From a virus, in the IMG/VR virus record IMGVR_UViG_3300046642_000884, positions 120,966 through 184,965 of that record: 64,000 bases of DNA, one strand, 5' to 3'. The notes under the pieces were generated by a model. It was given only the letters and a program-made list of their open reading frames with translations. It did no database searches and was not told the origin of the DNA. The translations under genes were made by a program, and so were the position numbers. Below are positions 3,037-54,499 of this stretch, one piece after another (the stretch's first letter is position 1; each line of letters opens with the position of its first letter).

Positions 3037-3141
3037 TCACTTATTTTTCGTTTGGTTTCTTCTGTATGGGTCCTGAATCGTTTTACCTAGATATTTCAAT
3101 CCAGTTTTATTGTGTTGTTTTACGTATAAAAAGTGATTCAT
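3037..3141 (-). pseudogene. Relic of a GIY-YIG-type homing endonuclease N-terminus (34 codons)
   Basis: A 34-codon frame starts MNHFLYVKQHNKTGLKYLGK and then stops. The pattern LYVK.H...GLKYLGKT..DPY matches the N-terminus of phage-borne GIY-YIG-like (Seg-type) endonucleases, which normally continue for 150 or more residues. The catalytic remainder is absent: after DPYRR the frame runs KNK-stop into the leader of the next gene. It has its own consensus promoter (3151-3179). It is either a decayed homing endonuclease or a very small peptide reusing the fold start; decay is more likely. Confidence 0.6.
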
Positions 3142-3150: not shown

Positions 3151-3179
3151 ATAATATTCGATGTTTTATACTATGTCAA
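3151..3179 (-). promoter_or_regulatory. Sigma70-like promoter TTGACA-17-TATTAT
   Basis: TTGACA (3174-3179, overlapping the gp55 stop codon) and TATTAT (3151-3156) are 17 bases apart on the minus strand. The next ATG (3141) begins 10 bases after the -10 box, so the predicted 5' leader is about three bases. It would transcribe the GIY-YIG relic and then the 46/47 group independently of gp55. Confidence 0.75.
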
Positions 3180-6068: not shown

Positions 6069-6179
6069 TTATTCTCCTTTCCATAAGTTGATAAAAAATC
6101 TAACGCCAATAGTAAATGTAAGAGCGAATAAAAAAGTCGTGGAAGCTTCTATAAAGAATTGCCATTGGTTTGTAGTCAT
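6069..6179 (-). CDS. 36-residue predicted single-span membrane protein
   Basis: A 36-codon frame begins MTTNQWQFFIEASTTFLFAL and continues with a hydrophobic run to NLWKGE. It forms one good transmembrane helix (about residues 14-31) with a basic residue inside it and a lysine near the C-terminus. The ATG overlaps the uvsY stop as ATGA, and the stop lies two bases before the next start, so it fits perfectly between two genes. It could be a small inner-membrane protein, for example a regulator or superinfection factor. The function is not known. Confidence 0.65.
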   Translation of the reverse strand: MTTNQWQFFIEASTTFLFALTFTIGVRFFINLWKGE

Positions 6180-6613
6180 GATGCTCCTCCACGATACATC
6201 TCGAACTTAATCATTGTGTTGATAGTATAGCCTCTGGCTTTTATTGCGTCTAAGATAAACTCAAGGGTTTCCACTTTCGTTTTCTGTATTTCGATCTTAG
6301 ATTCCAGTTCTTGTAGCTGTTTATCGGCGTCGGTATAAATGGGAATATCCTGGCGAAGAACTTTTCCTGAGGTTGGATAGTCCCAGCCCTGTTTTTTAGT
6401 TTCCGAACTGGGGCCTTCCAGATAAAACTGATGCTTTTTCAGTTTCAGTCGTCTCTCGTCAAACTCCAGTGATTTCAGTTTTAGCCGTTCATTTGACCAT
6501 AAATCAACATATTTTGAGTGGAGAGCATAAAGTTTCTCTGACTCTGCCATAAGATCAGTGGAGTCTATTTTACTGTCGGCCTTCCATTCCGCCAGGATTT
6601 CTTGAAGATTCAT
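6176..6613 (-). CDS. uvsY: UvsY-like recombination mediator
   Basis: A 145-residue helical protein matching T4 UvsY (137 residues), which loads the UvsX recombinase onto gp32-coated ssDNA. Shared features are the early helical EILAEWKADSKIDSTDL segment, a central LKLKSLEFDERRLKLKKHQFYLEG, and the C-terminal LDAIKARGYTI, which aligns with LDAIKSRGFAI of T4. The ATG at 6613 is favoured; an in-frame GTG two codons earlier lies against the -10 box. No Shine-Dalgarno precedes it, and the promoter placement predicts a leaderless mRNA. It leads the operon running to the 46/47 genes. Confidence 0.88.
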   Translation of the reverse strand: MNLQEILAEWKADSKIDSTDLMAESEKLYALHSKYVDLWSNERLKLKSLEFDERRLKLKKHQFYLEGPSSETKKQGWDYPTSGKVLRQDIPIYTDADKQLQELESKIEIQKTKVETLEFILDAIKARGYTINTMIKFEMYRGGAS

Positions 6614-6619
6614 ATTCAC

Positions 6620-6648
6620 AATATAAACCAGATTTAAGCTAATGTCAA
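6620..6648 (-). promoter_or_regulatory. Consensus sigma70 promoter of uvsY (TTGACA-17-TATATT)
   Basis: TTGACA (6643-6648) and TATATT (6620-6625) are separated by 17 bases on the minus strand. Six bases then lead directly to the uvsY ATG, so the expected +1 is the A of the start codon. The box reads TTGACATTA...TATATTGTG, the same shared letters as the plus-strand promoter at 7438. Confidence 0.85.
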
Positions 6649-6655
6649 GAGCTTT

Positions 6656-7273
6656 TTATACGTCGAGAGTTGAAGAAAAGTCAGAGAAACGGAATACACA
6701 GGTGGCAGTTAAATATCGTTCTTCAGTTACTGCCGCATCAAATACCAGGGTCGATAGTGAGGTTGGCCAACATTCATGATAAGTTAAGTTTCTTATCACG
6801 TTCTTCTGGGCATTCAGGAGAGACACCAGGATTTCCGATTTAATACCGTAACCAGTATATTCCGGGTTTTTGTTTAGTTCAGCATACTTTTTTGGATTGA
6901 ATCCTGAGATGTCCTTTAGCCAATGATGCAGCTCAAAGTAGTTATTCAGGCCTTTATCCACCCTAAAGGTTACTATCAACGGTTGTTCGAACTGGATATG
7001 ATCGCCTGGTTGTGGCAGTTCGATAAATGGAGTGCCTTCGTCGGCCGATGGTAGAGTTATGCCAGGAAGATTGATACGATAGACAAAATAGTTGGTGTTT
7101 GGTGATCGTTTTAGATGGAAGCGAATACCTAAGGCTGACTGAAGGTCTTCCGTTTTAGGGTTGTCTTTGAGCGCTCCAGTTGGTTTTGGTGGTTCCCAAT
7201 TTGGTTTAACGGGTTCGAATGGAGGCGTCTCAACATGAATGTCTATAACTTCTACGGGTCTATTTGAGGGCAT
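6656..7273 (-). CDS. Putative virion protein related to tail-tube (gp19-like) proteins
   Basis: A 205-residue protein with the order FHLKRSPNTNYFVYRINLPGI, then TPF.ELPQPGDHIQFEQPL.VTF.VDKGL.NYFELHHWLKDI. A similar 'NIPGI..p...P...iP.pGD.i.f..l.v.F.vDe.l.Ny.ei..Wi' pattern occurs in virion structural proteins of cyanophage-like T4 relatives. It resembles the tail-tube fold, where the tube protein also has V.FYNEIDFDLRDFFEAWNN. It may be a tube-like tail component such as a completion protein. The N-terminus is Pro-rich. It lies away from the main structural cluster. Family recognition is from memory of the pattern, so only moderate confidence. Confidence 0.6.
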   Translation of the reverse strand: MPSNRPVEVIDIHVETPPFEPVKPNWEPPKPTGALKDNPKTEDLQSALGIRFHLKRSPNTNYFVYRINLPGITLPSADEGTPFIELPQPGDHIQFEQPLIVTFRVDKGLNNYFELHHWLKDISGFNPKKYAELNKNPEYTGYGIKSEILVSLLNAQKNVIRNLTYHECWPTSLSTLVFDAAVTEERYLTATCVFRFSDFSSTLDV

Positions 7274-7284
7274 ATGTTATTTAT

Positions 7285-7413
7285 TTAACCCCATTTTACT
7301 ACTATTTGTCGAACTCTTTCCCTTGATAAATTAAAGATTCTAATGTTAGAAGGATCATCTGTTCCTCCCCTATGTTTAGGTATTATGTGATGATCATGCC
7401 ATATTATAGTCAT
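7285..7413 (-). pseudogene. Relic of an HNH endonuclease (42 codons)
   Basis: A 42-codon frame starts MTIIWHDHHIIPKHRGGTDD and ends RQIVVKWG. The HHIIPKH.GG core is the first half of the HNH/His-Me motif and closely parallels the intact gene at 25752-26228 (HHVIPKHAGG). The second half, normally EEHAEAH, is missing and replaced by an unrelated arginine-rich end. A GGAG lies eight bases before the ATG, so it could still be translated. It is most simply a truncated mobile endonuclease. Confidence 0.6.
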
Positions 7414-7437
7414 AATAAAACTCCATTTATATTTAGC

Positions 7438-7466
7438 TTGACATTACGGCAATAAAGCTATATATT
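7438..7466 (+). promoter_or_regulatory. Consensus sigma70 promoter of the plus-strand operon
   Basis: TTGACA (7438-7443), a 17-base spacer and TATATT (7461-7466), then six bases to the ATG at 7473. The shared bases with the uvsY promoter (TTGACATTA and TATATTGTG) suggest a common early or middle class. No Shine-Dalgarno separates the -10 box and the start codon. Confidence 0.85.
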
Positions 7467-7472
7467 GTGCTA

Positions 7473-8012
7473 ATGATCAAACTGGTAGCATACTCTTCAG
7501 ACCTGTTCCTTGCCGCGATTGTAAAGCTTTTTTATGACAATTCCACAGAAGCTTCCTATTCCGAGAACGAAAAAAAGCAATATGTATCTTTAAAAGTTTA
7601 TCGACCTTTTGCTGTAAAAGAAGGTTTTGTTAAACTGTCGGGATTTAGAGTGGTTGTTGAATGTTCGTCAGTAAATGCTACTCTCAGAGTTTATGAAATG
7701 AGTTTAGGTCCTTCCGCGACATTTGAAAGTATGGATGAACCTATCGAGGTGGTTTATTTGATAGGTAGTAAAGAATATAAACTAATCCAGAAACTTATTC
7801 GTGATATGGAAGACGCTAAAGAGCGTGAAAAAGAAAAATATTTGGAATCAGTCAAACAGGAGTTTATCGAAGGAAAGTTGACCTTTGATAGTCCGTTAGA
7901 GGCCTATGTTGAGCATATGAACGAAATGAAGGCTAAGGAAGTATCCAAATCTTATTCGGTGGAACCGGAAATACTATCGTTTGACGAAGAAGACGAGAAC
8001 GATGGAGGATAA
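7473..8012 (+). CDS. Hypothetical protein, first gene of the plus-strand operon
   Basis: A 179-residue protein starting MIKLVAYSSDLFLAAIVKLF. Residues 1-100 look like mixed alpha/beta (SLKVYRPFAVKEG..., RVVVECSSVNATLRVYEM). Residues 105-150 form a highly charged helix (IRDMEDAKEREKEKYLESVKQ), and the C-terminus is acidic (SFDEEDENDGG). An in-frame GTG two codons upstream touches the -10 box, so the ATG is preferred. It is one of few plus-strand genes and is driven by a strong sigma70-like promoter, so early expression is likely. Such genes often encode host-takeover proteins, but no family is recognised. Confidence 0.75.
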   Translation: MIKLVAYSSDLFLAAIVKLFYDNSTEASYSENEKKQYVSLKVYRPFAVKEGFVKLSGFRVVVECSSVNATLRVYEMSLGPSATFESMDEPIEVVYLIGSKEYKLIQKLIRDMEDAKEREKEKYLESVKQEFIEGKLTFDSPLEAYVEHMNEMKAKEVSKSYSVEPEILSFDEEDENDGG

Positions 8013-8336: not shown

Positions 8337-8967
8337 CCGATTTCCAGCGCTTCAGGACAAGCTTGCCTGCGTCTTCCTCTATATAACTACACGAATGTAG
8401 CCAATCTCCTATGTTTAGGTAGTGAATACCATCAAAAACATTGTCAAGCGGGTCATGGCTATGGCCACAGATAACTCCATCACAATGAGCCTCCTTAGCG
8501 GCCTGGGCTAGCGATTTTTCGAAATGGCTGGTATACTTGAATAAAATATTATGAAAAAGGCCCCAGAATTTTCGAAAGCGGTTGGCGAACCAGGACTCCG
8601 ACATAAAATGTGTGATGTGGAGCAACCAGTCGTATTGGTCGCCGTGAATAATGAGATATCTTCGGCCAGGCACCGGCTCATAAAACAGACGATCAGGAAC
8701 TAAAATGATTTTTTGGTAGAACCAGGTTCCAGCAAATTGCCGCATAAAGGCGTCGTGGTTGCCGGGAAGGTAAATAATATTTTTGAATTTCAGTATTTCC
8801 ATTAGTGCGGAGGTGTGCCATTTATCCCAGTGAACAAAATTATGATCAAATAGGTCGCCAACGATATATACCCTCTCCTCAGGGCTTCGAGTTTGTAAAA
8901 ATTCGCATAACTCTTTTGCTTTAGAGATTGAGAGACCCAAATGTGTGTCTGAAATGAACAATATCAT
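8329..8967 (-). CDS. Metallophosphoesterase of the LpxH (UDP-2,3-diacylglucosamine hydrolase) type
   Basis: A 212-residue calcineurin-fold phosphoesterase. Metal-ligand motifs: SDTHLG (D7, H9), GDLFDH (37-42), GNHD (69-72), HGDQYD (108-113) and GHSHD (168-172). The short length and the HGD.YD element point to the LpxH-like branch, which cleaves the pyrophosphate of UDP-diacylglucosamine in lipid A synthesis, rather than to DNA-acting SbcD. Its start overlaps the stop of a glycosyltransferase, so it may act on cell-envelope or nucleotide-sugar substrates. The substrate itself cannot be read from sequence. Confidence 0.85.
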   Translation of the reverse strand: MILFISDTHLGLSISKAKELCEFLQTRSPEERVYIVGDLFDHNFVHWDKWHTSALMEILKFKNIIYLPGNHDAFMRQFAGTWFYQKIILVPDRLFYEPVPGRRYLIIHGDQYDWLLHITHFMSESWFANRFRKFWGLFHNILFKYTSHFEKSLAQAAKEAHCDGVICGHSHDPLDNVFDGIHYLNIGDWLHSCSYIEEDAGKLVLKRWKSVT

Positions 8968-9683
8968 CGATAATTGCTATGTTTTTGTGTTAGAGGTTTA
9001 TGGAATAACGAAACATAGAAATAACTGGTGATATACGTCAGAGTGGTTGTCACTATTCCCCCTTGAGAGAAACGTCGGCCCGACGAAAGAATATACATTT
9101 TAGGGTTATAGATAATTTTGCCAAGTTTTACTAGCTGGGTTGCGGTGCGTGTATCTTCTCCATAAAATGCAAAACTTGTATCGAAGCCTCCTATAGCTTC
9201 AAGAGCTGATCGGCGAATAACATAATTGCCGCCTTGCATCATTGGAAGATGTTTGTGCGATATTTTAGCAGCTATATAGAATAACTGAGAAGCTGTCTTG
9301 AACCAGCTCGGCATATCATAAAACTTTAGAGGTCCTGTAACGGCGACCACTTCTTCCTCGTCAAAATATTTTAGAGCTTCGGGTAACCAGGTCAATGGCA
9401 ATCTATTGTCGGCATCAATAAACGCCAGCAGGTCATATTTCGAGGCTTCAAATCCAGTCTGACGAGCTTTTACTATGCCTTGTCCGATGTTATAGATTAC
9501 TTGATCGGCCATAGCTTTGATGGCATTCCAGCGGGTATCATCTTGGGAATGATCGTCCACTACAATAATCTCGTATTTTATTTTAGGATAAAACACCATA
9601 ACGTATTTGATTGATTCAATACAATCCGCAATAAAGTTGACTTCGTTATGAGCTGGGATTAAAAAACTTATATTTCTGGTCAT
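8964..9683 (-). CDS. Family 2 (GT-A fold) glycosyltransferase
   Basis: A 239-residue GT2 enzyme. The N-terminus ISFLIPAHNE is the nucleotide-binding strand, followed by IIVVDDHSQDDT (41-50) and the DxD-type FIDADNRLP (D90, D92). A later GGFDTSFAFYGEDTR resembles the GGF...EDxD acceptor region. A hydrophobic stretch near the C-terminus (TLTYITSYFYVSLF) may touch the membrane. It probably modifies a host surface sugar, a virion glycan or DNA; the target is unknown. It is coupled to the phosphoesterase and follows a GT9-like gene. No Shine-Dalgarno is evident before its ATG. Confidence 0.88.
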   Translation of the reverse strand: MTRNISFLIPAHNEVNFIADCIESIKYVMVFYPKIKYEIIVVDDHSQDDTRWNAIKAMADQVIYNIGQGIVKARQTGFEASKYDLLAFIDADNRLPLTWLPEALKYFDEEEVVAVTGPLKFYDMPSWFKTASQLFYIAAKISHKHLPMMQGGNYVIRRSALEAIGGFDTSFAFYGEDTRTATQLVKLGKIIYNPKMYILSSGRRFSQGGIVTTTLTYITSYFYVSLFHKPLTQKHSNYR

Positions 9684-9689: not shown

Positions 9690-9718
9690 ACTCTAAGATA
9701 TTTATCGAAGGTTGTCAA
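9690..9718 (-). promoter_or_regulatory. Possible sigma70-like promoter TTGACA-17-TAGAGT
   Basis: TTGACA (9713-9718) lies in the end of the upstream gene, 17 bases from TAGAGT (9690-9695, four matches to TATAAT). The ATG starts seven bases after the -10, the same geometry as at 6620 and 7438. The weak -10 keeps this tentative. Confidence 0.4.
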
Positions 9719-12946: not shown

Positions 12947-12954
12947 TATTTATA
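12947..12954 (-). promoter_or_regulatory. T4-type late promoter (TATAAATA) of gene 23
   Basis: An exact TATAAATA on the minus strand, 32 bases before the gp23 ATG, with AAGGAG between them. It gives the capsid gene its own late transcript. Confidence 0.85.
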
Positions 12955-19669: not shown

Positions 19670-19698
19670 TTGACTTTATGGGGGTGGTATGATAGGAT
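19670..19698 (+). promoter_or_regulatory. Sigma70-like promoter of the endonuclease gene
   Basis: TTGACT (19670-19675), 17 bases, TAGGAT (19693-19698), and the ATG six bases after the -10 box. The mRNA is predicted to be leaderless or nearly so, although AGGAT could act as a ribosome site if transcription starts upstream. Confidence 0.6.
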
Positions 19699-19703: not shown

Positions 19704-20135
19704 ATGCCTACCCCCAAACACCTACGAAAACAACACGAACAGAAGCGGAAGAATAACAGTCCGGAACATGTCGCCCACCTCAAAACTTATCACCATAACT
19801 GGTATTTAGAGAATAAGGAAAGATTGAATAAAAAAAGCTTGGATGACTATTACGCTAACCGTGAACAACGCATAAAGGAAAGGGTTATATTCGCTCGTAA
19901 GAAGAAGTTCGGAATGACGCCTGAAATGATTGAAGAAATGCTTATCAACCAGAACCATCAATGCAAGCTATGTGGAACCGATAAACCAGGCGGAAGGGGA
20001 CATTGGCATATAGATCATAACCACGAAACGAATAAGGTGCGCGGCTTATTATGCCAGAAATGCAATATGGGAATCGGCATATTCAACGACGATTCCCAAT
20101 TGCTTTACAAGGCTTCCCAATACGTCAAAACTTAA
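19704..20135 (+). CDS. Endonuclease VII-type HNH (His-Me finger) homing endonuclease
   Basis: A 143-residue protein. The C-terminal half has the recombination endonuclease VII signature: a Cys pair CKLCGTD (92-95 region), WHIDHNHETNKVRGLLC with the catalytic His cluster, and QKCNMGIG completing the zinc site. The N-terminal half is very basic with repeated KxRxN helices for DNA binding. It lies opposite in strand between genes 18 and 19 with its own promoter, and its 3' end overlaps the end of gene 18 by four bases. That is the usual pattern of a free-standing homing endonuclease in a conserved gene pair. Confidence 0.88.
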   Translation: MPTPKHLRKQHEQKRKNNSPEHVAHLKTYHHNWYLENKERLNKKSLDDYYANREQRIKERVIFARKKKFGMTPEMIEEMLINQNHQCKLCGTDKPGGRGHWHIDHNHETNKVRGLLCQKCNMGIGIFNDDSQLLYKASQYVKT

Positions 20136-28256: not shown

Positions 28257-28997
28257 TTATCCTATCTCAGGTAAGGCCGGAACTTCGGTTTCTGATCGCA
28301 TTTTTTGTTCTAGTTCTTCTAGCTCTGCCGAGGCTTCATCGAAGATTTGTTTACCGTTGAAATAGATACCTCCAGGCATTTGCATCTGGCCGAACTTCCC
28401 TAAGTTTTGTCCCCATTGTTTCTTTATGAGTGCAGTAGCATAGCGCATTAGGTAGCGGTCCCCCCACACTCTCGGATAGGCAACAGGATCAAGCACCTGG
28501 AAACAATCGATAAGAATTACTGCCCCGGCCCCCCACACATTAAGATCGGCGTTGATCTGAAGTTTATTTGATATCTTGTTGTAAGAGATTGGCTTAAATC
28601 CTACCAATAACTGTTCTAGCAGCGCAATGTGCTGAAACGCCATATAGTATGGAGCCATAGAAACCGAGGTCAGGGTATAGAGGTCATTCAAGGCAATCTG
28701 ATATCGAATAGAGAACATCGAGGTTGCATTGAAGGCGTCGGCTGGAGGATAGATCGAAACAGCCCCAACAATGTTATCGGGGAGCGTAATATATTGGTTT
28801 ACAACGTCTTGTCCAGTAAGCACATATCGATAGAACTGGCGGGTACTCGCATCGCCATTGAAAGTCTGCCAGTACATGATGGCTTCGTCTATACGATCTT
28901 CAACCTGATTATCGGAGACATTGATATTAATGACCTCGTTTCCAAGTTTGCGCAGGCAATAAAGCTTAAAATCATTGCGAGTTGCTGGTATTGACAT
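28257..28997 (-). CDS. gp13: gp13 neck protein
   Basis: A 246-residue protein (T4: 309). Typical segments are RNDFKLYCLRKLGNEVININVSDNQVEDRIDEAI.YW, then YITLPDNIVGAVSIYPP, YYMAFQHIALLEQLLVGFKPISYNKISNKLQI and VWGDRYLMRYATALIKKQWGQNLGKFGQMQMPGGI.FNG. It closes the packaged head together with gp14. It abuts the upstream gene exactly (stop next to start). Confidence 0.95.
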   Translation of the reverse strand: MSIPATRNDFKLYCLRKLGNEVININVSDNQVEDRIDEAIMYWQTFNGDASTRQFYRYVLTGQDVVNQYITLPDNIVGAVSIYPPADAFNATSMFSIRYQIALNDLYTLTSVSMAPYYMAFQHIALLEQLLVGFKPISYNKISNKLQINADLNVWGAGAVILIDCFQVLDPVAYPRVWGDRYLMRYATALIKKQWGQNLGKFGQMQMPGGIYFNGKQIFDEASAELEELEQKMRSETEVPALPEIG

Positions 28998-29368: not shown

Positions 29369-29376
29369 TATTTATT
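29369..29376 (-). promoter_or_regulatory. Late-promoter-like AATAAATA before the 120-residue gene
   Basis: AATAAATA (one mismatch to TATAAATA) overlaps the stop codon of the giant gene and lies eight bases before the next ATG. It could start a transcript of the neck genes. Confidence 0.35.
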
Positions 29377-32300
29377 AATCGGAAGGACCACCAGACGGAG
29401 GCTTAAAAAGCGCTGTGATCTGTTTTGTTATTTTCTTAAAGTTCCCAACTACGGTTTCGGGGACAACTCCAGAATGCTCTCTAATCGATTCTGTTCGTTT
29501 CTGGACATTTGCCATAATATTATCAGAGATATCTTTCGTAAATTTAGCGATGACGCGTAACCGTTCGATGAACCAGGTTTGCAGAGTGGCCAGGGCCGTA
29601 ACAGATGCAGTCAAAACGATTCTTACCCTAATAAACGAGGCAAGTGACCAGACTGTTGCCCTCACTATAAACTTGATTGGCGGATAATGCTGAAGGACGC
29701 CTGGTCTAAAGACGGCTCTTATTGTTGCTAACAAGATTTTTCCAGCACGAAGCGTTTGGCTGGCTACGATTGTGACTGGAGAAAACAAGATTTTTATAGG
29801 AGTCTTGGCCAGCCGAGCCGCGGGGGCAACCATAACAAGCCAAACCCTGCTAGTTACACGGCTCAGTAACAATGGAGACGACACCAGTGCAAGACGAATG
29901 GCTGAGATGGTTCTACGGTATAGAACGGTAAAGGTAACTGTAAAGACTCGAATCATCGCTATAGTCTTTTGTAACAAGGCACGAGGAACAGCTTGATATG
30001 TTTTGGTTATGGAGACTAACTTTCCAACCTGTGAAGATACAGCCACATTGAACCTTGTCGCAATGCGTGTTATTGCTTTGGCTAGTGTGGTCAGAACTGT
30101 GATTGGGAATATTACTGTTGTCGCCACAGTCTTTTGCAATAACGGAACAGCGGCTATAAGGCTAAACAGCCGTTTCACCAGGACTTGTCCAACCCGCAGG
30201 GTTGTTACCAGCGATTTATATATTTTGGTAAGAGTGATGGTTCTTTGGATAAAGACTTTTGTAAAAACTTGATACAGATCAGCCGTAAGCATTAGAGTTT
30301 TTGTCAGCATGACACGCGGAAGAACTTGGAAAACATAGCTTCTGTTCTGTTGGAGATGACTGAATGCTTGAATAGAGCTTATATATGATGCTCCTTCAAC
30401 AAAGGCCTTTCCAATATGAAGAAATGAGTCAATTGATTTTGCAGAAAACGTCTTGTCTCTCCCTAGGGTTTTACTAAACAATGGTGCCAAACTCATTAGC
30501 ATTAGGGTTGGAACTTTTGTTATTGCTCGGCTGATTCGTGTGGTTAGAACAACCTGATATAGCGAGGTTATAGCAAGGGCTAGCTTGCCAAACAAAAAGG
30601 TTGTTGTTGTCTGGAAAGTTCTTGGTCGAAGAAACGATTTAACGAACTGCCAACTTACCTTTGCTGATGCTAGAAGGGCCTTTGCTGAAGTAATAGCATT
30701 TGAGGCGGAGATAGCAATAACAAATCTAGTGGTTGTTCTTATGGCGTTTTGTAATAATGACGAAGCTCCAAGAGTGAAGATTTTTTCTCCACTTTGGATA
30801 AGTGACTTGAAAGCTATTGCAACAACAGGGACAAAATTCAAGTTCTTACTAAGGTCCTTAAGCAGCGAAGCTGTTGTAGTTGTCATAAATGTATAGCTGG
30901 GATAGTATCCCCTTGTGTATTGAAACAAGAAGGTCACGGTCGAACCAAACAGCAATACTCCTTTGGTAATGGCTTTTCTGACTAAGAAGACAGGGCTTAC
31001 CAAGAATACAGTTATTTTGACAATAGCATTCGGAAGCCACGAAACATTTGTCACCGCTTTAAACAGCTTGGTTACAACCAAATCTTTTTGGAGTAATGCC
31101 ATTGGTGTGGCTGCCATTTTGAAAGTTCTGACAAAAACATTGGACGCAACCTGAATGAATGGAATGGATATGCCGAGGAATATCTGCTCGGACTTGTTGA
31201 TGGTTCTTCTAACTAAACCACGAGCGCTTACTACGAATGATGTGGCTGGGCGAATCAAAGATTTTTGTATCGACGAGAAAGCTATAATACCAGAGAATGT
31301 TCTGGCCATGGCAACAGCCTTTTGTTGTAGGAGAGCTGTACTAGCCGTGCTGAATGCTATTATTTTGTTAAGCGAATTCTGTGAAGCAAAGCTTAGGGCT
31401 GCTAGACCAAAACCAATAGGTCTTGTAATCGTTTTTTGGAGGAAACTAGCAAGATTGATTAAGAATATGGTGGTGCGGGCCAGCGATTTCTGTATCAAAG
31501 AACGGGCAGTAGCATTAAATGTTTTGAATATCGAAAGTGTTCGTTGCGCAATAAAAGCACTGGCCGCTGCCTGGAAAGTTGTGAGCTTAGTAGCTCTCCT
31601 TTGTATAGCATTGAATAATGCAGCCGCAGTAAAAACAAGAGCCGATTTTCCAATAGCTTTTACCGAAGTAACTGTAGCTGTTATACCAAAGAGAAGTGAT
31701 GTTGTAAGAGCTGTTCTTCCCCAGCGAACAGAAGCTGCCGCTTGATAGGTTTTGATTTGGTTAATAGCCTTTTGTAGTCGAGAAAATGTTAAAGCTGCAA
31801 AGAACGATCGAAGCATTGATGCTGTTTTTGTCAGTAAAGCCGTTGTTGTAGTTGTAAAGAGACCAGATTGGGCAAGATGATGTATTGTGCTCTTGACGGT
31901 TCCTACGAGAACAGCACCACCCTGGAATAGCTCTTGCATATCAGCAATGGCTGCTTCACCAATAGCTCCGCCAAAGCCCATAATGTTGCCAAAACCAAGA
32001 GGGAATGTCGAAACATAGCCCAGTAGTTTCACAAGGACTGCTCTGCCGGGGAAAGTAGAAGCTGTTGCCGCTGCCTTGAAGAGTTTGATGGTCGATATTG
32101 TTCTGATTATTTGTGCGGCTGAAACGGTAATCAACATATTGAAAAGTTGTAGAACCGAAGAAACCTGCTTTGCTAGGAAGAATCCTCCTTGTCCTGCTAC
32201 ATATAATTGTGCAACTTCATTGGCTGTTAGGGCCCGATTGTAGGTTTGGATATCATCAAGCGCTCCGTTATACCAGAACCAACCTCCTGGATCATTTACC

Positions 32301-35300
32301 CAGCTTGAATTTCCAACGCCCAGCCAATAATTGTAGGAGCCAGGACTATAATCGTTTTGAGCAACAACTTGGCTACCGACGATGTTTTTATCGATATAAA
32401 GAGTTTCGGTAGTTCCATCATAAGTATCTACTGCCTGATGCCATTGTCCATCATTGAGTGCAGCGGCCGAAACAATCTGGGAGGTGGTAGAATTGTGCCA
32501 GAAGAAGCTGGCGCGTAGGAATCCAGAATTGTCGATATAGAGTGCCGGAACGTGTCCTGCAGGAAGGGCTCCTCCAGGAGTGGCTGGTTGAGCTTGTCCC
32601 AAAATAATTCCCGAAGCGGTTGTTTTGAACCAACAAGTAAATGATCCTTGATAGCTGGCGCTATAGTTAAAGGCTGCAGCCGGTATAGAAACATAACCTG
32701 TCGATCCATTGAACTGTAGGGCGTTGACTCTTCTTCCAGGAGCTGTTGTAACTCCCCCATTTTCTGTTCCATTAAGAGCGTTGCCGGATGTATCGTTTGC
32801 TGAGCCATCATCAAACGAGTAATGTGCTATTAGCCCAGAAAAGGTTGTTGTCGCGTTTTTACCAAAGACAACGAAGAATGTCAGCACGTGACCCTTCATA
32901 GCCTGAGTTTTTGCTGCTACTGCGACAATGAAACTCGACATTTTACTTAAAAATCTTGGCGGTTGAACAAACGATGCGACAACAAGTTGAAGGATAGATT
33001 GTAATTTTGTTTTTGTCTGGATTGCGGCTGCCCGAAGGTTGAAGAGTTTTGCTCCAGGGAAGACTGCCTTTATGATAGTTAAAACACCAGCAATCGAAGA
33101 TTGAATGACTTTGCCCGTCGCTTTTTGCGTGGTTATTGTGGCGGCTATAACGAAGCTGGAAATACGAGCCAACAATTTTTGCGGCTGAAATAATACGACA
33201 GCTTTATAAACGGTAAGCTGTGCCTTCAATTTTTGTGCCTGGAAAAACACGTTTATTATATAAACAACAGTTTTCGCTTGTATCTTTAATAGTAGGGGAG
33301 CGGTTGCCAGAACGTTGAAGATTTTTTCAGGAGCCGGAATATTCTTTAGGAGGTTCATTGTGCTGTTGAATGAGACTGAAATCGGCAGCTTAGTTAGAGC
33401 CTTTTGGACGTTTGAGATTGTGCTTACAACAAAGTTATAAACTATAACATAAGGTTGCTTTGTGATTAGCTGGAAGCTGGCAGTTACACTAAAAATAATA
33501 AGCTGTGTTGCTCTTTGTAGCGAGGCGGCTGCTTGTAGAGCCGACAACATATTAAAGAAAATTGCGGCGGGCAAGATATTCTTTGTTAGAGCAAGAACGC
33601 TAGCAGCCGATGATTGTATGGTCTTAGCCAATGCTTTTTGAGATTTTAAGACGGAGATTGCGACAAAGCTGTAAGCTCGACCATAGATTTTCTGAAAGCT
33701 GATCTGAAACGATGCTACAGCCTTAAAAATAGCCAGCTGTGATTGTGCCCTCAGCAATTGAAGAGTTGTAGTTGTCAGTATCCTGAAGAACTTTGCTCCT
33801 GTCACAACGCCCTTTAAAACAATCATAATTGCTGAGGCTGAAAATTGGCTGGTTTTGCTTAGGGTTCTTTGAACCCGGAAAGTTGTAGCTATAGCAAACC
33901 GATAGGCTTGGTTTGGCAGCCGTTGGCTGTAAAACGACGCGGCGGCTAGATGGACAAGAATGCGTGATGTGCCAACTCGTTGTTGAGCAGTTGAACCAGA
34001 TGCAAGAATGTTGAAGATTTTAGCGGACGATGAAAGGTTCTTGACAATGGCCACAATGCCCGCTATAGAGAATTGGACCACCCGGGCTCCAGCCTTCTTG
34101 ATTTGTGAAGTTACAGTTGCCGCAAAATTAACTAGCCGAGCTGATGATTTTTGTGCTTGGAAGCTTGCAAGGGTATTAAAGAATCTTGTGGAAGAAACAG
34201 CTCTTAGAAGTGTCCAGGTGGTAGAAGCTACAAAGCTTGAGATTTTACCGGGAGTTTTAACCAGAGCAAGCTTCGCTGAAGTTGCGAAGTTAGTAGCAAT
34301 CCTGGTCACGATTTTGATTATAGCCGAAATGGTGCTGGCTGTGAAACTTGTCGTTTTACCCAGGGCTTTAACCATGGTTGCGCTGGATGTTGCCGGGAAG
34401 TTCGTAATCTTGCCCAGAGCTTTGAGTAGGCGCACATTGGCGGTAATGGCCATTACTGCAGAGTAAGGAAATTGATTGGTTCCACTGATAAACTGAGTGG
34501 TAAGCAATAACCTGACGCTTGCCAAGAATAATATTATTTTGCCGAGGGCCTTCTGAACAAGACTTGTAGGCGTTGCAACAAATGTTCGGAGCGCTACAAG
34601 AGATTTTTGTAGAAGAGCTGAAGCAGCCAGACGGAATATTGTTGTTCTGCTCATCGCTTTTTGTAGAAGCGTTGTCGTCGCTGAGCTGAATATTGTTGTT
34701 CTGCTAAGCGCTTTTTGTAGAAGAGTTGTTGTAGCCGAGCTGAATGTTCTTAGGATCGTAGCGGCTTTCTGGATTTGGTTTGAGGCGGCGGCAAAAAAGA
34801 CAACAGCTTTAGCTGCAGTTTTTTTAGTTAATGCCGATGTTACGATTTGATACTGGCGGGCTATAGGGGTAGTAACTTTTTGGATCAGGCCTACAATTCC
34901 GGCAAGAAAAAGGACGCTCTTGTTTATTGCCTTTTGTAGCGGTATTATTAAACTAACCTTCATAGATTTTACGTTTGAAATAGTCTTTTGAAGTGTTGCT
35001 CTAACATTAGCGGCGAAAATATTAATCTGGGAGAATTGTTGGCTGGAACTTTTAATAGCAGTTACCAGAGCTGCGCCTCCCTGAAATAGCTCCTGCATAT
35101 CGGCTATTGCCGCTTCACCAATAGCTCCGCCAAAGCCTATAATGTTGCCAAGACCAAGAGGGAATGTTGAGATATAGGCCAACAGATTTTTGAGACTGAG
35201 TTTGCCCTGGATAGTAAGATAAATTGCGCCAACGTTATAAGTTAAAGTCTTTGAAAGAATTTGTAATCGACTTATTTGATTTGTTATCAACAGACTATAG

Positions 35301-36694
35301 ATATCAGGAAGCGGAGTTATTGTTTTTTGGAGCAGTAAGCCCATACTAATATTATATAAATCAGCAGCTGGCTGAACTTGCTTCTGAATCAACGAACGGA
35401 TGGCCGGAAAAAATAGTTTAGTTGAGTTTATGATGGGATGGGTTAAGCTGCTAATAGCCGTTGGACTAAACGTTGCTAATTTGTTATATAATTTTCCTAT
35501 GATTGAACTAAAGGACGCAAGACTATTAAAAAGTCTGCTTGAAGAGACGTTTTTTAGCGGCTGCAGCTGAGGATTTATGATATATATGTCTGGAGCTGGC
35601 GTGATGTTTTTTATATCGAGGAATTGTGAACCCCCCTTGAAAGTAAGTGTCAGGGGAGTATTTGCCGCGCCTACTGTATAGATAATGACGATCAAACCAC
35701 CGCCGCCGACACCAGCAGTCTTGACGGTAGAAGCGGAACGAACTGCACCCGATCCGCCGCCGCCTCCCCCAAAGTTGGCTCCAGCACCTCCTGTTGCAGT
35801 GTTGGCAGTATTAGTCGCGTTCCCTCCAGAGCCACCGCCTCCTCCGCCAGAACCGTTAGTTGCGTTCGCGTAGTAGGTATTACCAGTTGCCCCAGCTCCT
35901 CCCGAACTATTAGCCGCGCTAGCAGTGAAGCCACCACCTCCGCCACCGGCTCCTGAATTCGCTGCAGCGGCAATACCAATACCAGTCGCTCCCCCGAGGC
36001 CTCCAGCAACACCGCCCGGACCCGATCCTCCCTTTCCTCCCGTTGCCGAGGCACCAACTGCCGTTCCGACTGTCGAAGATGTTCCTCCGCCTCCGCCGCC
36101 TCCTCCTCCGCCTCCGGATGCGGATGTGCTGCCGGCTCCTCCGATCATACCAGCGGCTGCGCCAGTGCTGGTCGCATTGGCTCCGGCTGCGCCACCCCCG
36201 CCTCCGCCGCCCCCGAAAGTAATCGTTACGGTTGAGGCTGCGCCGTTTCCTCCCGCAGCACCTATTGCTGTATAAACGGCCGCGGCCGATGCAACTGATG
36301 CTCCATTGGCATAGCCGGTTCCGTTCGCAATGCCGCCGGTTGTTGTGACACCGGCTCGACCCGCCATCGCCCAATAGGCTTGGGTGCTTCCAGCAGTATT
36401 ACCCTGCCAGAAAGTTCCAGCAGTGTTGGAGTCAGTTGTGGAAGTGTTGTTATTGGAGATTTGAAAAGTAGTCGAAGATGCAAGCGCTCCGGATGAATAG
36501 GCAAGACGAACAAAACCTCCTCCAGCCCCACCAGAACCACCAGGCGTCGCGCTGACGCCAGAGGCTCCGACACCGCCACCCCCTCCACAACCAATCAGAT
36601 GAACGATATGACCTGCGTCGGTCCAATCCCCTGGTTTTGCCCATGGCGCTGAGTTTCCTAATGCGGCAGTAAGGAAGACTGTAGTTGTTGCCAT
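29375..36694 (-). CDS. Giant repetitive virion protein: Gly-rich head, 18-residue repeats, LamG-like domain
   Basis: A single 2439-residue frame. Residues about 1-345 are a Gly-rich domain (GCGGGGG..., ending GGGGLIVIIYTV), as in phage fibre tips. About 360-1285 and 1505-2350 are tandem repeats of near 18 residues, consensus LLQKALSRTTIFSSATTT (Q-K at 3-4, R at 8, F at 12). About 1285-1500 is a LamG/concanavalin-like domain (GLIAHYSFDDGSANDTSGNA ... NGSTGYVSIP ... DDIQTYNRALTANEVAQLY). The last 80 residues are amphipathic and charged. From about 538 to 1285 only one acidic residue (Glu about 1123) occurs. It probably forms a long fibre or other virion structure, as it sits beside neck genes and overlaps its upstream gene by one codon position. 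No homologue is recognised. Confidence 0.85.
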   Translation of the reverse strand: MATTTVFLTAALGNSAPWAKPGDWTDAGHIVHLIGCGGGGGVGASGVSATPGGSGGAGGGFVRLAYSSGALASSTTFQISNNNTSTTDSNTAGTFWQGNTAGSTQAYWAMAGRAGVTTTGGIANGTGYANGASVASAAAVYTAIGAAGGNGAASTVTITFGGGGGGGGAAGANATSTGAAAGMIGGAGSTSASGGGGGGGGGGGTSSTVGTAVGASATGGKGGSGPGGVAGGLGGATGIGIAAAANSGAGGGGGGFTASAANSSGGAGATGNTYYANATNGSGGGGGGSGGNATNTANTATGGAGANFGGGGGGSGAVRSASTVKTAGVGGGGLIVIIYTVGAANTPLTLTFKGGSQFLDIKNITPAPDIYIINPQLQPLKNVSSSRLFNSLASFSSIIGKLYNKLATFSPTAISSLTHPIINSTKLFFPAIRSLIQKQVQPAADLYNISMGLLLQKTITPLPDIYSLLITNQISRLQILSKTLTYNVGAIYLTIQGKLSLKNLLAYISTFPLGLGNIIGFGGAIGEAAIADMQELFQGGAALVTAIKSSSQQFSQINIFAANVRATLQKTISNVKSMKVSLIIPLQKAINKSVLFLAGIVGLIQKVTTPIARQYQIVTSALTKKTAAKAVVFFAAASNQIQKAATILRTFSSATTTLLQKALSRTTIFSSATTTLLQKAMSRTTIFRLAASALLQKSLVALRTFVATPTSLVQKALGKIILFLASVRLLLTTQFISGTNQFPYSAVMAITANVRLLKALGKITNFPATSSATMVKALGKTTSFTASTISAIIKIVTRIATNFATSAKLALVKTPGKISSFVASTTWTLLRAVSSTRFFNTLASFQAQKSSARLVNFAATVTSQIKKAGARVVQFSIAGIVAIVKNLSSSAKIFNILASGSTAQQRVGTSRILVHLAAASFYSQRLPNQAYRFAIATTFRVQRTLSKTSQFSASAIMIVLKGVVTGAKFFRILTTTTLQLLRAQSQLAIFKAVASFQISFQKIYGRAYSFVAISVLKSQKALAKTIQSSAASVLALTKNILPAAIFFNMLSALQAAASLQRATQLIIFSVTASFQLITKQPYVIVYNFVVSTISNVQKALTKLPISVSFNSTMNLLKNIPAPEKIFNVLATAPLLLKIQAKTVVYIINVFFQAQKLKAQLTVYKAVVLFQPQKLLARISSFVIAATITTQKATGKVIQSSIAGVLTIIKAVFPGAKLFNLRAAAIQTKTKLQSILQLVVASFVQPPRFLSKMSSFIVAVAAKTQAMKGHVLTFFVVFGKNATTTFSGLIAHYSFDDGSANDTSGNALNGTENGGVTTAPGRRVNALQFNGSTGYVSIPAAAFNYSASYQGSFTCWFKTTASGIILGQAQPATPGGALPAGHVPALYIDNSGFLRASFFWHNSTTSQIVSAAALNDGQWHQAVDTYDGTTETLYIDKNIVGSQVVAQNDYSPGSYNYWLGVGNSSWVNDPGGWFWYNGALDDIQTYNRALTANEVAQLYVAGQGGFFLAKQVSSVLQLFNMLITVSAAQIIRTISTIKLFKAAATASTFPGRAVLVKLLGYVSTFPLGFGNIMGFGGAIGEAAIADMQELFQGGAVLVGTVKSTIHHLAQSGLFTTTTTALLTKTASMLRSFFAALTFSRLQKAINQIKTYQAAASVRWGRTALTTSLLFGITATVTSVKAIGKSALVFTAAALFNAIQRRATKLTTFQAAASAFIAQRTLSIFKTFNATARSLIQKSLARTTIFLINLASFLQKTITRPIGFGLAALSFASQNSLNKIIAFSTASTALLQQKAVAMARTFSGIIAFSSIQKSLIRPATSFVVSARGLVRRTINKSEQIFLGISIPFIQVASNVFVRTFKMAATPMALLQKDLVVTKLFKAVTNVSWLPNAIVKITVFLVSPVFLVRKAITKGVLLFGSTVTFLFQYTRGYYPSYTFMTTTTASLLKDLSKNLNFVPVVAIAFKSLIQSGEKIFTLGASSLLQNAIRTTTRFVIAISASNAITSAKALLASAKVSWQFVKSFLRPRTFQTTTTFLFGKLALAITSLYQVVLTTRISRAITKVPTLMLMSLAPLFSKTLGRDKTFSAKSIDSFLHIGKAFVEGASYISSIQAFSHLQQNRSYVFQVLPRVMLTKTLMLTADLYQVFTKVFIQRTITLTKIYKSLVTTLRVGQVLVKRLFSLIAAVPLLQKTVATTVIFPITVLTTLAKAITRIATRFNVAVSSQVGKLVSITKTYQAVPRALLQKTIAMIRVFTVTFTVLYRRTISAIRLALVSSPLLLSRVTSRVWLVMVAPAARLAKTPIKILFSPVTIVASQTLRAGKILLATIRAVFRPGVLQHYPPIKFIVRATVWSLASFIRVRIVLTASVTALATLQTWFIERLRVIAKFTKDISDNIMANVQKRTESIREHSGVVPETVVGNFKKITKQITALFKPPSGGPSD
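29650..32185 (-). repeat. Second block of 18-residue (54-base) coding repeats in the giant gene
   Basis: The block encodes about 845 residues after the LamG-like domain with the same spacing: a K or R pair, an aromatic eight or nine residues later, then hydrophobics. Examples are ARSLIQKSLARTTIFLI, LQKTITRPIGF and VSSQVGKLVSITKTYQAV. Drift between copies is strong at both DNA and protein level. Confidence 0.75.
31912..32026 (-). repeat. Duplicated 115-base module, copy 2 (GFGGAIGEAAIADMQELFQGG)
   Basis: Encodes STFPLGFGNIMGFGGAIGEA and then AIADMQELFQGGAVLV at about residue 1560. It matches the copy at 35071-35185 closely in DNA and protein. It interrupts the 18-residue repeats just after the LamG-like domain. 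Confidence 0.85.
32840..35620 (-). repeat. First block of 18-residue (54-base) coding repeats in the giant gene
   Basis: About 925 residues of repeats upstream of the LamG-like domain. The best preserved copies are at about 34580-34760, where LLQKALSRTTIFSSATTT, LLQKAMSRTTIFRLAASA and LLQKSLVALRTFVATPTS follow one another, and the DNA is nearly identical between two copies (aatattgttgttctgct). Elsewhere copies keep the 18-19 residue spacing but vary in sequence. Confidence 0.8.
35071..35185 (-). repeat. Duplicated 115-base module, copy 1
   Basis: Encodes STFPLGLGNIIGFGGAIGEA and then AIADMQELFQGGAALV at about residue 510. It is the partner of the module at 31912-32026. Each copy opens a long repeat block, which suggests the whole block plus module was duplicated around the LamG-like domain. 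Confidence 0.85.
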
Positions 36695-41148: not shown

Positions 41149-43434
41149 ATGTTTCAGACTCCAGGTTCTCGTCCTAAACAAAGATATCCTAATATAAGCG
41201 GGAAGGGAAATCTCCCTGTTGCCAATGCGGTCTCGGTTGGCAATTCGACGGTCAATGTCTCGGTCAATTCAACAAATATATCGGTTGGAGCGAATGTTGA
41301 TATTAACCAAGCAAACATTTCTGTTGGTAATACCACAACTAATGTCTATATAAACTCAACCGCGGTATTTATCGGCAACGCCTCGGTCAACGTTGCGGCA
41401 AACTCAACTGTTTTTTCTGGAACTGCCAACAATGCGCTCAATCTTGGTGGAACTGCGGCTGCTGGTTATCAGACTACGGCTGGACTGGCGGCTAATGTCT
41501 TAGTTCTGACCGCAAATAATGCCAACTTCCTCGGAACTGTAGCGGCTGCTTCCTATCAGCTAAACAGCACTCTGGCTGCAAACGTCCTGACTATGACCTC
41601 AAACAACACAAATTTTGTTGCTTCAGGTCAGACCCTTATTAACTCTACATCATGGCAGATAGGAAACACGATTGCCAATGTCACAATCAATTCAACATCG
41701 ATCTTCATTGGTAATGCGACTATCAACGTTGCTGCAAACTCAACCGTCTTCTCTGGAACAGCTAACAACGCAACCAATCTAGGAGGCACCGCAGCCGCTG
41801 GTTATCAGACTACGGCTGGACTAGCCGCAAATGTTCTCGTCCTCACGGCTAATAACGCCAACTTCCTCGGAACTGTTGCTGCAGCCTCATATCAGCTAAA
41901 CAGCACACTGGCTGCAAACGTCTTAACTATGTCTGCGGCGAACGCGGTTGTTATTAACCAGGGTCAAACAATCGTCAATTCTCAATCCATAACAATTGGT
42001 AATACTATAGCCAATCTATTCATAAATTCAACTGCCATAGAAGTTACAAACGCTACTTCAAAGTTTCATAAAGACCCAGGCGGATTTTCGATAGGCAACT
42101 CAACTGCTAATAATTTTGGTAATTCTATTATAGAGATTTTAGCAAATTCATTAGGTCAGACAGTTTCAACGCCTATCTCTATGTCACTGGGCAATTCTAC
42201 GGCCAACGCCTTCGTGAATTCAATCCAAATATATCTAGTCAATTCTACTACCGGCTCAAACACAACAATTATTCCGGGAGTTATTTCTCTCGGAAACACC
42301 ATTTCTAATATTTCGGTTAATTCAAGTCAGATATTGATTGGTAACGCAACAGTCAACGTTCTAGCAAATTCAACTACCTTCTCTGGAACGGCCAACAACG
42401 CAACCAATCTTGGAGGCACTGCGGCTGCTGGTTATCAGACTACGGCTGGACTGGCTGCGAATGTTCTAGTCCTCACTGCCAATAATGCGAACTTCCTTGG
42501 AGGAACAGCAGCAGCAGGCTATCAGACCACGGCTGGACTAGCTGCTAACGTTTTAGTTCTAACATCAAACAATACAACCTTCCATGTTTCAGGCCAGACA
42601 ACTATTAACTCTACAACGTGGGGTATTGGTAATACCGTAGCTAATGTGTTTGTAAACTCAACAATTATGTTAGTTTCCAACTCGACCGCTCAAACCATTA
42701 TTACTCCTAATACTGTCACACTCGGCAATACAATTGCAAACGTGTCGGCGAATGCGACAATAGTGTTTGTGGGCAATGCGACCTTCAGTGTCACCGTAAA
42801 CTCAACCGCCTTTTCTGGAACTGCTAATAATGCGCTCAATCTTGGCGGAACGGCTGCAGCCGGTTATCAAACAACAGCCGGACTAGCAGCCAACGTTTTA
42901 GTTCTGACCGCAAATAATGCGAACTTCCTTGGAGGAACAGCAGCAGCCTCATATCAGCTAAACAGCACCCTGGCGGCTAATGTCTTGACTATGACCGCGA
43001 ACAACACAAATTTTGTTGCTTCAGGTCAGACACTAATCAATTCAACTTCGTGGCAAATCGGCAATACCACCGTCAATACTACGATAAACTCAATATCATT
43101 AGCATTTAACGGCGTTTCATTATTCTCAACAGTTAACTTCACCACCTCTGGAACTGGTGCCCAGGTTATCGATTCGTTTCTAATCGCCACATTCCGCTCA
43201 GCCGAATATGTTCTCTCGATCAAGGATACTGCCGCCAACAACTATCAGACTTCCCGGATCGAAATGCTTCAGGATGGAACGAATGCAATTCTAACAGAAT
43301 ATGCCCCCCTGATTAGCAACACAGCGATGGGAACATTCACCGCAACAGCTAATTCCACTGCAGCTGCACTAAACTTTACGCCGGTTTCAACTGGAACTAT
43401 AGTAAAAGGCTCCAGGCTTGCCTATACAGTATAA
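41149..43434 (+). CDS. Asn-rich repetitive tail-fibre-like protein, 761 residues
   Basis: The N-terminus (SVGNSTVNVSVNSTNISVGANVDI...) is a ladder of short repeats '.VGN.T.NV..NST..' followed by four to five copies of a longer unit FSGTANNA.NLGGTAAAGYQ, then TTAGLAANVLVLTANNANFLG. The last about 110 residues (AQVIDSFLIATFRSAEYVLSIKD..ANNYQ...AILTEYAPLISNTAMGTFTA) form a non-repeated C-terminal domain shared with the minus-strand gene at 44517. The ladder suggests a beta-solenoid shaft and the end a tip or chaperone-like domain. It begins six bases after the previous gene. Likely role: a receptor-binding or distal fibre part. Confidence 0.8.
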   Translation: MFQTPGSRPKQRYPNISGKGNLPVANAVSVGNSTVNVSVNSTNISVGANVDINQANISVGNTTTNVYINSTAVFIGNASVNVAANSTVFSGTANNALNLGGTAAAGYQTTAGLAANVLVLTANNANFLGTVAAASYQLNSTLAANVLTMTSNNTNFVASGQTLINSTSWQIGNTIANVTINSTSIFIGNATINVAANSTVFSGTANNATNLGGTAAAGYQTTAGLAANVLVLTANNANFLGTVAAASYQLNSTLAANVLTMSAANAVVINQGQTIVNSQSITIGNTIANLFINSTAIEVTNATSKFHKDPGGFSIGNSTANNFGNSIIEILANSLGQTVSTPISMSLGNSTANAFVNSIQIYLVNSTTGSNTTIIPGVISLGNTISNISVNSSQILIGNATVNVLANSTTFSGTANNATNLGGTAAAGYQTTAGLAANVLVLTANNANFLGGTAAAGYQTTAGLAANVLVLTSNNTTFHVSGQTTINSTTWGIGNTVANVFVNSTIMLVSNSTAQTIITPNTVTLGNTIANVSANATIVFVGNATFSVTVNSTAFSGTANNALNLGGTAAAGYQTTAGLAANVLVLTANNANFLGGTAAASYQLNSTLAANVLTMTANNTNFVASGQTLINSTSWQIGNTTVNTTINSISLAFNGVSLFSTVNFTTSGTGAQVIDSFLIATFRSAEYVLSIKDTAANNYQTSRIEMLQDGTNAILTEYAPLISNTAMGTFTATANSTAAALNFTPVSTGTIVKGSRLAYTV
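41410..43020 (+). repeat. Tandem coding repeats of the fibre shaft
   Basis: DNA units of roughly 100 bases encoding ANNA(L/T)NLGGTAAAGYQTTA and LAANVLVLTANNANFLG recur near 41430, 41770, 42390, 42500 and 42830. Within them 20-40 base stretches are almost identical. They are alternated with NSTSWQIGNT... ladder units. Confidence 0.8.
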
Positions 43435-43437
43435 ATA
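43430..43437 (+). promoter_or_regulatory. T4-type late promoter (TATAAATA) of the Gly-rich adhesin gene
   Basis: An exact TATAAATA on the plus strand that includes the stop codon of the upstream fibre gene (43432-43434). It lies 45 bases before the ATG at 43483. Confidence 0.8.
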
Positions 43438-43482
43438 ATAAAAATACTAAATAACTAAACTTGGGGGAAAGGGAACTCAACA

Positions 43483-44508
43483 ATGGCTACACAAGATTTC
43501 AGAGTACGACAAGGACTAGCAGTTAATACTGCGCTCACGGTAAACACCACCTTTGTCGCTAATTCCACAACAATTGCTGTTACTGGAGCGCCAGTTTGGA
43601 TTGGTAATGCCACAGTCAATACTGTTGCAAATTCGCTAGTTATGTCAGTTGCTGACGCTTCATCGAATACTTCGATAAATTCTACAGCATTCGCAATCAA
43701 AGGTGTTGCTCTTACTAGTGGCGGAAGCAACGTTCAAACCTTTTCAGCAAACGGTACTTGGACAAAACCTGCTTCAGGAACTACTGTTGCTATTTACGTT
43801 TGGGGAGCAGGCGGTTCAGGGGGGTGTGCTAATGCCGCACTCGGTGCGGCCGGCGGTGGTGGTGGTGGTGCATATGTATTTGGTTATGCACCACTTTCAG
43901 CGTTTAATTCAACTGAAACTGTAACTGTCGGCATCGGGGGAGTATCCCGTACTGCAGCAGCCGCATCACTTTCTAATACTGGTCTAGTTGGAGGCGATTC
44001 ATCTTTCAATCAAGGAGGCGTTTCTACAATTTGGAAAGCGTTTGGAGGAGGAGGCGGTGGTAACGGCAACACCAGCCAAACAGCCGGCGGAGGCGGAGGC
44101 GGCTGGACTAGCGCAGGAAGTCCCGGCACTCCAGGAACGGGCTTCGCGATGACCGATCCATTTAGTTCTGGTGGTCTTTCCACTGCCAGCACCCCGGGAG
44201 GGCCGTCAGTCTATGGTGGAGGCGGTGGAGCTGGAGCTGGCGGCGGCACTGGCTTGCTAGGCGGCGCCTCATTTATGGGAGGTGGTGGTGGCGGCAATAG
44301 CGTTAGGAACCTTGCAATTGCGCTGGGGGGTGCCTCATCTTTATCTGGTAATACTTTTGGTGGGGGTAATGGTGGTGCTGGTGGCAATTCTACAGTAGCC
44401 GCAACTGGCGGCGTTTTTCCAGGAGGCGGCGGCGGCGCTGCTGCGAATGGGACGTTTGCAGGCTCTGGTGCGGGGGCTAACGGTCAAGTAATTGTCGTAG
44501 TATTCTAA
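43483..44508 (+). CDS. Gly-rich fibre tip / adhesin-like protein, 341 residues
   Basis: Residues 1-80 are fibre-like (QDFRVRQGLAVNTALTVNTTFVANSTTIAVTGA, then IGNATVNTVANSL), with the RQGL..N start typical of T4-like fibres. Residues 85-341 form a Gly-rich domain (TFSANGTWTKPASGTTVAIYVWGAGGSGG, GGGGGAYVFGYAPLSAF...TVTVGIGG, many G5-G6 runs, ending GANGQVIVVVF), comparable to gp38-type adhesins whose glycine runs pack as polyglycine II helices. It probably contacts the host receptor. The same kind of domain forms the head of the giant gene. It ends nine bases from the convergent fibre gene. Confidence 0.8.
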   Translation: MATQDFRVRQGLAVNTALTVNTTFVANSTTIAVTGAPVWIGNATVNTVANSLVMSVADASSNTSINSTAFAIKGVALTSGGSNVQTFSANGTWTKPASGTTVAIYVWGAGGSGGCANAALGAAGGGGGGAYVFGYAPLSAFNSTETVTVGIGGVSRTAAAASLSNTGLVGGDSSFNQGGVSTIWKAFGGGGGGNGNTSQTAGGGGGGWTSAGSPGTPGTGFAMTDPFSSGGLSTASTPGGPSVYGGGGGAGAGGGTGLLGGASFMGGGGGGNSVRNLAIALGGASSLSGNTFGGGNGGAGGNSTVAATGGVFPGGGGGAAANGTFAGSGAGANGQVIVVVF

Positions 44509-44516
44509 TAAAGTGA

Positions 44517-46094: not shown

Positions 46095-46285
46095 GTAACT
46101 TTGCTTTCAAGAAGAGCTAGACGATATTCCAGCATATTTATTCGATCTTGCATCATCTTTAGTACTTTTGCTTTTTGGCGTTCTTCCCTAATCGAAGTCA
46201 TTCGGCTCAGATCAGTATTAATCAGCACGTTTGATTTCTTGTTTTTTGAGAAACCAGCAACATTGGTTTTTACCAGATCGATCAT
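46091..46285 (-). CDS. Small coiled-coil protein, 64 residues
   Basis: Starts MIDLVKTNVAGFSKNKKSNV, and the second half, IREERQKAKVLKMMQDRINMLEYRLALLESKV, is a leucine-rich helix with heptad spacing. It overlaps the genes on each side (TAATG and ATGA). In T4-like phages such short helical proteins next to fibre genes can be attachment or assembly factors; here that is inferred from position only. Confidence 0.75.
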   Translation of the reverse strand: MIDLVKTNVAGFSKNKKSNVLINTDLSRMTSIREERQKAKVLKMMQDRINMLEYRLALLESKVT

Positions 46286-49005: not shown

Positions 49006-49358
49006 GACGCCTTAAACATAATTGGAATATTGGCTGATGAACTTCTATTAAATGGATCAACCAAGGTAAGAGTGACCGAGGTCTCAATGAGATTATTAGC
49101 TAGTGGATTAACATGAAATTGCTTATTATAAGGAACTGACATCATATATTGAAGTCTCACCTTCCCGGTTTGATCTGATTTTATAGGGCCTCCTAAAGTT
49201 CCTCCCCATGGTTTAATAAACGCATTAACCAGTTGTCCTCCAACATAAGCATCATATGCAGTGTTTGGTAACATATTTGCAACAAATATCTCAATCGGAA
49301 AATATTTTGTCTTTTGGATGGCCGAGACTTGAGTTGTCAATTCTGAGGGAAAGGGCAT
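49002..49358 (-). CDS. Small baseplate-operon protein, 118 residues
   Basis: The start MPFPSELTTQVSAIQKTKYF at 49358 is preferred to a far upstream one that overlaps the preceding gene by 89 bases. The fold looks like an all-beta Ig-type module (FPIEIFVANMLPNTAYDAYVGGQLVN..IKPWGGTLGGPIKSDQTGKVRLQYMMSVPYN, then IETSVTLTLVDPFNRSSSANIPIMFKAS). Its position between two large wedge-type proteins suggests a small structural connector. AAGGA precedes the start. Confidence 0.75.
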   Translation of the reverse strand: MPFPSELTTQVSAIQKTKYFPIEIFVANMLPNTAYDAYVGGQLVNAFIKPWGGTLGGPIKSDQTGKVRLQYMMSVPYNKQFHVNPLANNLIETSVTLTLVDPFNRSSSANIPIMFKAS

Positions 49359-49362
49359 GAAA

Positions 49363-49370: not shown

Positions 49371-49371
49371 C

Positions 49372-54483: not shown

Positions 54484-54499
54484 TTTTTATTTTTTTCTC

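Follow-up and report, generated by a model that had tools for sequence, protein, structure and literature searches.

Sigma-70 type promoters predicted to give leaderless messages for replication and recombination genes of an uncultured T4-like phage

The closest described counterparts of the promoters analyzed here are those of the TA-led bacterial genes (Zheng et al. 2011; PMC3160421), in which the motif TANNNT lies about 12 bases before the start codon with no Shine-Dalgarno site and is read as a -10 box from which transcription starts at the codon itself. In Deinococcus-Thermus, it has been established by experiment that a -10 box abutting the open reading frame (ORF) drives a leaderless mRNA and that a properly spaced -35 box enhances it (PMC12340547); the genes concerned are cellular, and the text does not mention phage. 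All of the 171 leaderless RNAs mapped in Sinorhizobium begin with AUG (PMC3616915). Among phages, leaderless initiation has been noted in lambda (PMC3160421), and the AR9 paper describes phage transcripts as often leaderless (PMC5312081).

The promoter class reported here shares the geometry of both the TA-led and the Deinococcus-Thermus genes: TANNNT occurs about 10-12 bases before start codons more often than expected by chance, the Shine-Dalgarno site is missing, and the start codon is AUG. It differs from the TA-led genes, which were described for cellular genomes, most of them Actinobacteria and Deinococcus-Thermus, in belonging to a lytic T4-like phage, in having a strong -35 box, and in coexisting with leadered genes of the same genome that do use Shine-Dalgarno sites. 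Leaderless phage mRNAs such as that of lambda cI are single genes, mostly regulatory. The likeness to cI is that of a phage gene transcribed from its own AUG by the host RNA polymerase, but here the predicted class comprises about 14 genes and includes the replisome. With T4, the phage shares the probable use of host sigma-70 RNA polymerase, the orthologous genes 43, 61, 62, and uvsY, and late TATAAATA promoters, although such spacing occurs nowhere in the T4 genome. A search of the open-access literature turned up no leaderless class described for T4-like phages. Leaderless genes are already known; to our knowledge, no phage-wide class that takes in replisome genes has been described.

The window, that is, the whole stretch of 64,000 nucleotides that was analyzed, corresponds to bases 120,966-184,965 of a virus record of 184,965 bases. 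Judged by its gene content, the record is that of an uncultured T4-like phage, with gp23, gp55, UvsW, UvsY, endonuclease VII, gp43, gp61, gp62, gp32, gp45, UvsX, and RegA. Genes outside the window were called with a simple codon-usage script, and their limits are approximate. No named phage close by DNA was found over the first 25 kb of the window, and two bacterial-genome scans, run to place the host with the polymerase and an L,D-transpeptidase as queries, returned no relative. There are 26 tRNA genes (record 43140-62915 and 106411-106502). A link between a phage initiator tRNA and leaderless initiation was considered and rejected, as both phage tRNA-Met genes lack an initiator-type anticodon stem.

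The preliminary description had pointed out that the promoter of uvsY and that of a plus-strand operon share their boxes, a 17-base spacer, and an ATG whose A is the seventh base past the -10 box, and this arrangement is exact in the sequence (Table 1). Flanks TTGACATTA and TATATTGTG are common to both promoters, and over the whole record the pattern with these flanks occurs at these two sites only. The similar geometry that had been described ahead of the endonuclease and glycosyltransferase genes is likewise real. The site at 3151, put forward as a further example, was dropped: a nine-base gap and a downstream fragment of only 34 codons rule against it as a solid leaderless member. The 34-codon ORF (window 3037-3141, minus strand) resembles the beginning of a GIY-YIG nuclease, with a score under the family cut-off, and is followed by an ORF in another frame; it is probably a decayed homing endonuclease.

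Table 1. Promoters and genes of the window (window positions)
Feature	Position	Strand	Details
uvsY promoter, -35 box TTGACA	6643..6648	minus	
uvsY promoter, -10 box TATATT	6620..6625	minus	17-base spacer from -35 box
uvsY, predicted leaderless	6176..6613	minus	PHROG 231, E 4e-32; no Shine-Dalgarno; six bases between -10 box and ATG 6613 (A = seventh base)
Plus-strand operon, -35 box TTGACA	7438..7443	plus	
Plus-strand operon, -10 box TATATT	7461..7466	plus	17-base spacer from -35 box
179-codon gene, function not assigned, predicted leaderless	7473..8012	plus	six bases from -10 box to ATG 7473
Promoter TTGACA-N17-TAGAGT	9690..9718	minus	upstream of glycosyltransferase
GtrB-like glycosyltransferase, predicted leaderless	8964..9683	minus	PHROG 841, E 2e-11, match from residue 4; six bases past -10 box, then ATG 9683 (A = seventh base)
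Promoter TTGACT-N17-TAGGAT	19670..19698	plus	upstream of endonuclease VII
Endonuclease VII, predicted leaderless	19704..20135	plus	PHROG 2914, E 4e-29; five bases past -10 box, then ATG 19704 (A = sixth base)
Promoter-like TTGACA-N17-TATTAT, doubtful member	3151..3179	minus	ATG = tenth base past -10 box
Late promoter TATAAATA of major capsid gene	12947..12954	minus	32-base gap to ATG; AAGGA

A search of the whole genome for TTGACA-N17 promoters with a close ATG, as had been proposed, extends the class beyond the window. The pattern TTGACA-N17-TANNNT occurs at 35 sites in the record, compared to 1-5 in five shuffles, and the same boxes occur only twice each at spacers of 16 and 18. Like sigma-70 promoters, the class thus combines boxes resembling TTGACA and TATAAT, 17 +/- 1 bases apart, at a frequency above chance. 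The -35 box extends upstream as GTTCTTGACA, giving the class consensus GTTCTTGACA-N17-TANNAT. Of the 35 sites, 14 are followed by an ATG at a distance of 6 or 7 bases from the -10 box (1.1 expected; Poisson P about 2e-11). The count is 10 at six bases and 4 at seven, where 0.55 would be expected at each position; GTG is found at these distances in no case and TTG in one. About twenty of the 35 promoters are not at leaderless distance. In a weight-matrix scan of 1386 ATG-started ORFs, 15 ATG placements fell at distances 5-7, compared to about 0.4 per position at 8-60. The scan yields 14 probable leaderless genes at distances 5-7, namely, those for the gp43 polymerase, gp61 primase, gp62 clamp loader, UvsY, endonuclease VII, the glycosyltransferase, a lytic transglycosylase-like protein, the 179-codon gene at 7473, and six others of no assigned function. 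The promoters do not resemble the middle (MotA-dependent) promoters of T4, since a consensus -35 box is present in place of the MotA box; PF09114 and PF09010, representing MotA/AsiA, gave no match in the phage in a search run without a positive control.

Shine-Dalgarno sites precede none of 17 close ATGs, compared to 10 of 11 leadered genes that lie 18-54 bases behind the same promoter and served as controls; these include gp32 and gp45, both led by a Shine-Dalgarno site. We infer, with a probability of about 84%, that host sigma-70 type promoters of non-late genes start RNA at the A of the AUG and so give leaderless messages. This is the best reading because the spacing peak is sharp, Shine-Dalgarno sites are missing, ATG is almost exclusive, and the arrangement recurs in relatives. 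In about 14 of the 35 cases the start codon lies six or seven bases beyond the -10 box, at the usual initiation point of sigma-70 RNA polymerase, and the transcript would begin at the A of the AUG. The ribosome, probably an intact 70S particle with initiator tRNA, would then take the AUG at the 5' end with no need of a Shine-Dalgarno site. Ordinary leaders with Shine-Dalgarno sites are found in most other members of the class, and the late genes have gp55-type TATAAATA promoters instead, most of them followed by leaders.

Variable start-site choice could instead leave the RNAs with leaders of just one to five bases, in which case initiation would be independent of a Shine-Dalgarno site and yet not strictly leaderless. 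The distance does range from 5 to 7, and some starts could be one or two bases off, but the peak at exactly 6 (10 of 14) coincides with the usual sigma-70 start, and we regard such leaders as improbable. More improbable still is that the close ATGs are 5'-terminal upstream AUGs, of a kind known in E. coli (PMC4965119), or leader peptides, with the real proteins beginning further down. Individual sites fit this description. At 103754, AAGGAG and an in-frame ATG follow downstream. At 28955 (record 28286-28991, minus strand), an ORF of 11 codons occupies the leaderless position and ends in TAATATG, its TAA lying one base before the ATG of the L,D-transpeptidase gene, which has no Shine-Dalgarno site of its own; reinitiation at the latter is possible. 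The ATGs at 103754, 94571, 28955, and 42714 may be upstream AUGs at the 5' end of the RNA and not the true starts of proteins. As a general account, however, this reading conflicts with homology that begins within the first six residues of five proteins: at residue 1 for the polymerase and for UvsY (the latter by tblastn alignment with UvsY of cultured phages), 2 for the clamp loader, 3-6 for the primase, and 4 for the glycosyltransferase. On these alignments, the start codon of all five is fixed. No alternative start exists for the polymerase or the glycosyltransferase, because each has an in-frame stop 12 bases upstream.

Least credible is the view that the promoter-like sequences are little used, expression being by read-through and the spacing an accident of a compact genome: several sites do lie in short gaps between co-directional genes, but the excess of sites over chance and the sharp spacing argue against it, as does the gp62 promoter (record 110242-110280, minus strand), whose perfect inverted repeat CATAGTGGAT-N11-ATCCACTATG includes the start codon in its second arm and would bury the AUG of a read-through RNA in a 13-pair stem (-19.3 kcal/mol; z -6.5). 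The leaderless RNA lacks this stem, and the folding prediction suggests that only the leaderless form of gp62 RNA would be translated. Such folding is not a general feature, since the polymerase and uvsY regions show no more structure than shuffled sequences do.

The late genes have TATAAATA promoters (minus strand, 31; plus strand, 3), and most of these are followed by leaders carrying AAGGA or AGGAG, in agreement with the preliminary description of Shine-Dalgarno leaders on late genes; the gp55-type late promoter is absent from the sigma-70 leaderless class. The broader proposal of that description, that many non-late proteins may be made from leaderless messages, is supported for the genes with sharp spacing, no Shine-Dalgarno site, near-exclusive ATG, and recurrence in relatives, but not for all non-late genes, as gp32, gp45, and others are leadered. 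Two late TATAAATA boxes, at window 40662 and 61277, are followed by an ATG after just 8 and 4 bases, and a few late genes could be leaderless too.

If the leaderless reading is true, the replication machinery of a lytic phage is translated from leaderless messages and its late structural proteins come from messages with Shine-Dalgarno leaders, and temporal control would partly be a matter of how ribosomes start. In T4, gp43 represses its own mRNA at an operator in the leader. Such control of the polymerase could not apply here, since a leaderless mRNA could not hold the operator. There would also be a practical consequence, since in such phages the starts can be assigned wrongly by gene finders that depend on Shine-Dalgarno sites or on the longest ORF: in the mechanical ORF list of the window, both uvsY and the plus-strand gene begin at a GTG directly behind the -10 box.

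In a relative with 76% DNA identity (L090), TTGACA-N17-TAGAAT-N5-ATG is kept at the polymerase gene while much of the surroundings differ. Its uvsX gene has the leaderless geometry and that of the present phage is led by a Shine-Dalgarno site. A promoter (ATCTGATAAGGTG..TATTATG) similar to that of the L090 uvsX gene (L090:7163-7230) precedes a different, 67-codon gene here (record 94015, 94571), as though an exchange of promoter and gene had taken place. Among 78 polymerase genes, 4 have the leaderless geometry and 64 have a Shine-Dalgarno site; three polymerase genes of other lineages share the leaderless geometry. The 807 kb surrounding gp23 in distant relatives gave just three sites of this kind with an ORF of at least 40 codons, all at uvsY orthologs. 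The geometry is thus found at uvsY or polymerase in uncultured T4-like lineages that are deeply separated from each other, but it is absent at uvsY in seven cultured relatives, and nearly all other UvsY homologs also lack it. A single seed site led to 119 other viral contigs; of the 221 further promoters on these, 50 have an ATG at distance 6-7, and some of these close ATGs belong to short ORFs ahead of Shine-Dalgarno sites. In a separate viral record of 150 kb (L299, record G005) there are 17 sites of this kind, and many of them share a spacer word close to ATAAATC. The trait is not universal in T4-like phages: Cr30, like T4, lacks any such site, and other cultured relatives have one to four.

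The leaderless polymerase genes require three changes on the polymerase tree, at least two of which are forced by supported branches, and the leaderless uvsY genes require three on the gp23 tree, a quick tree in which the window's own branch is long. Because three changes are needed on each, the trait looks recurrent rather than ancestral to all, and a single common origin is not supported by these trees, though one gain followed by repeated losses may still account for it. We suggest tentatively, and with some doubt, that separate uncultured T4-like lineages independently moved core replication and recombination genes to leaderless messages, namely, polymerase and uvsY and, in this clade, primase, clamp loader, and uvsX. 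Such a distinct mode of early translation would free it from Shine-Dalgarno competition and from leader-based autoregulation.

Two further features of the record fall outside this comparison. The primase promoter (record 78928-78964, minus strand) has an 18-base spacer with the hairpin TCGCGGC-TTC-GCCGCGA. An ORF of 2439 residues (window 29375-36694) contains many short, similarly worded repeats and likely encodes a tail fibre or similar structural protein.
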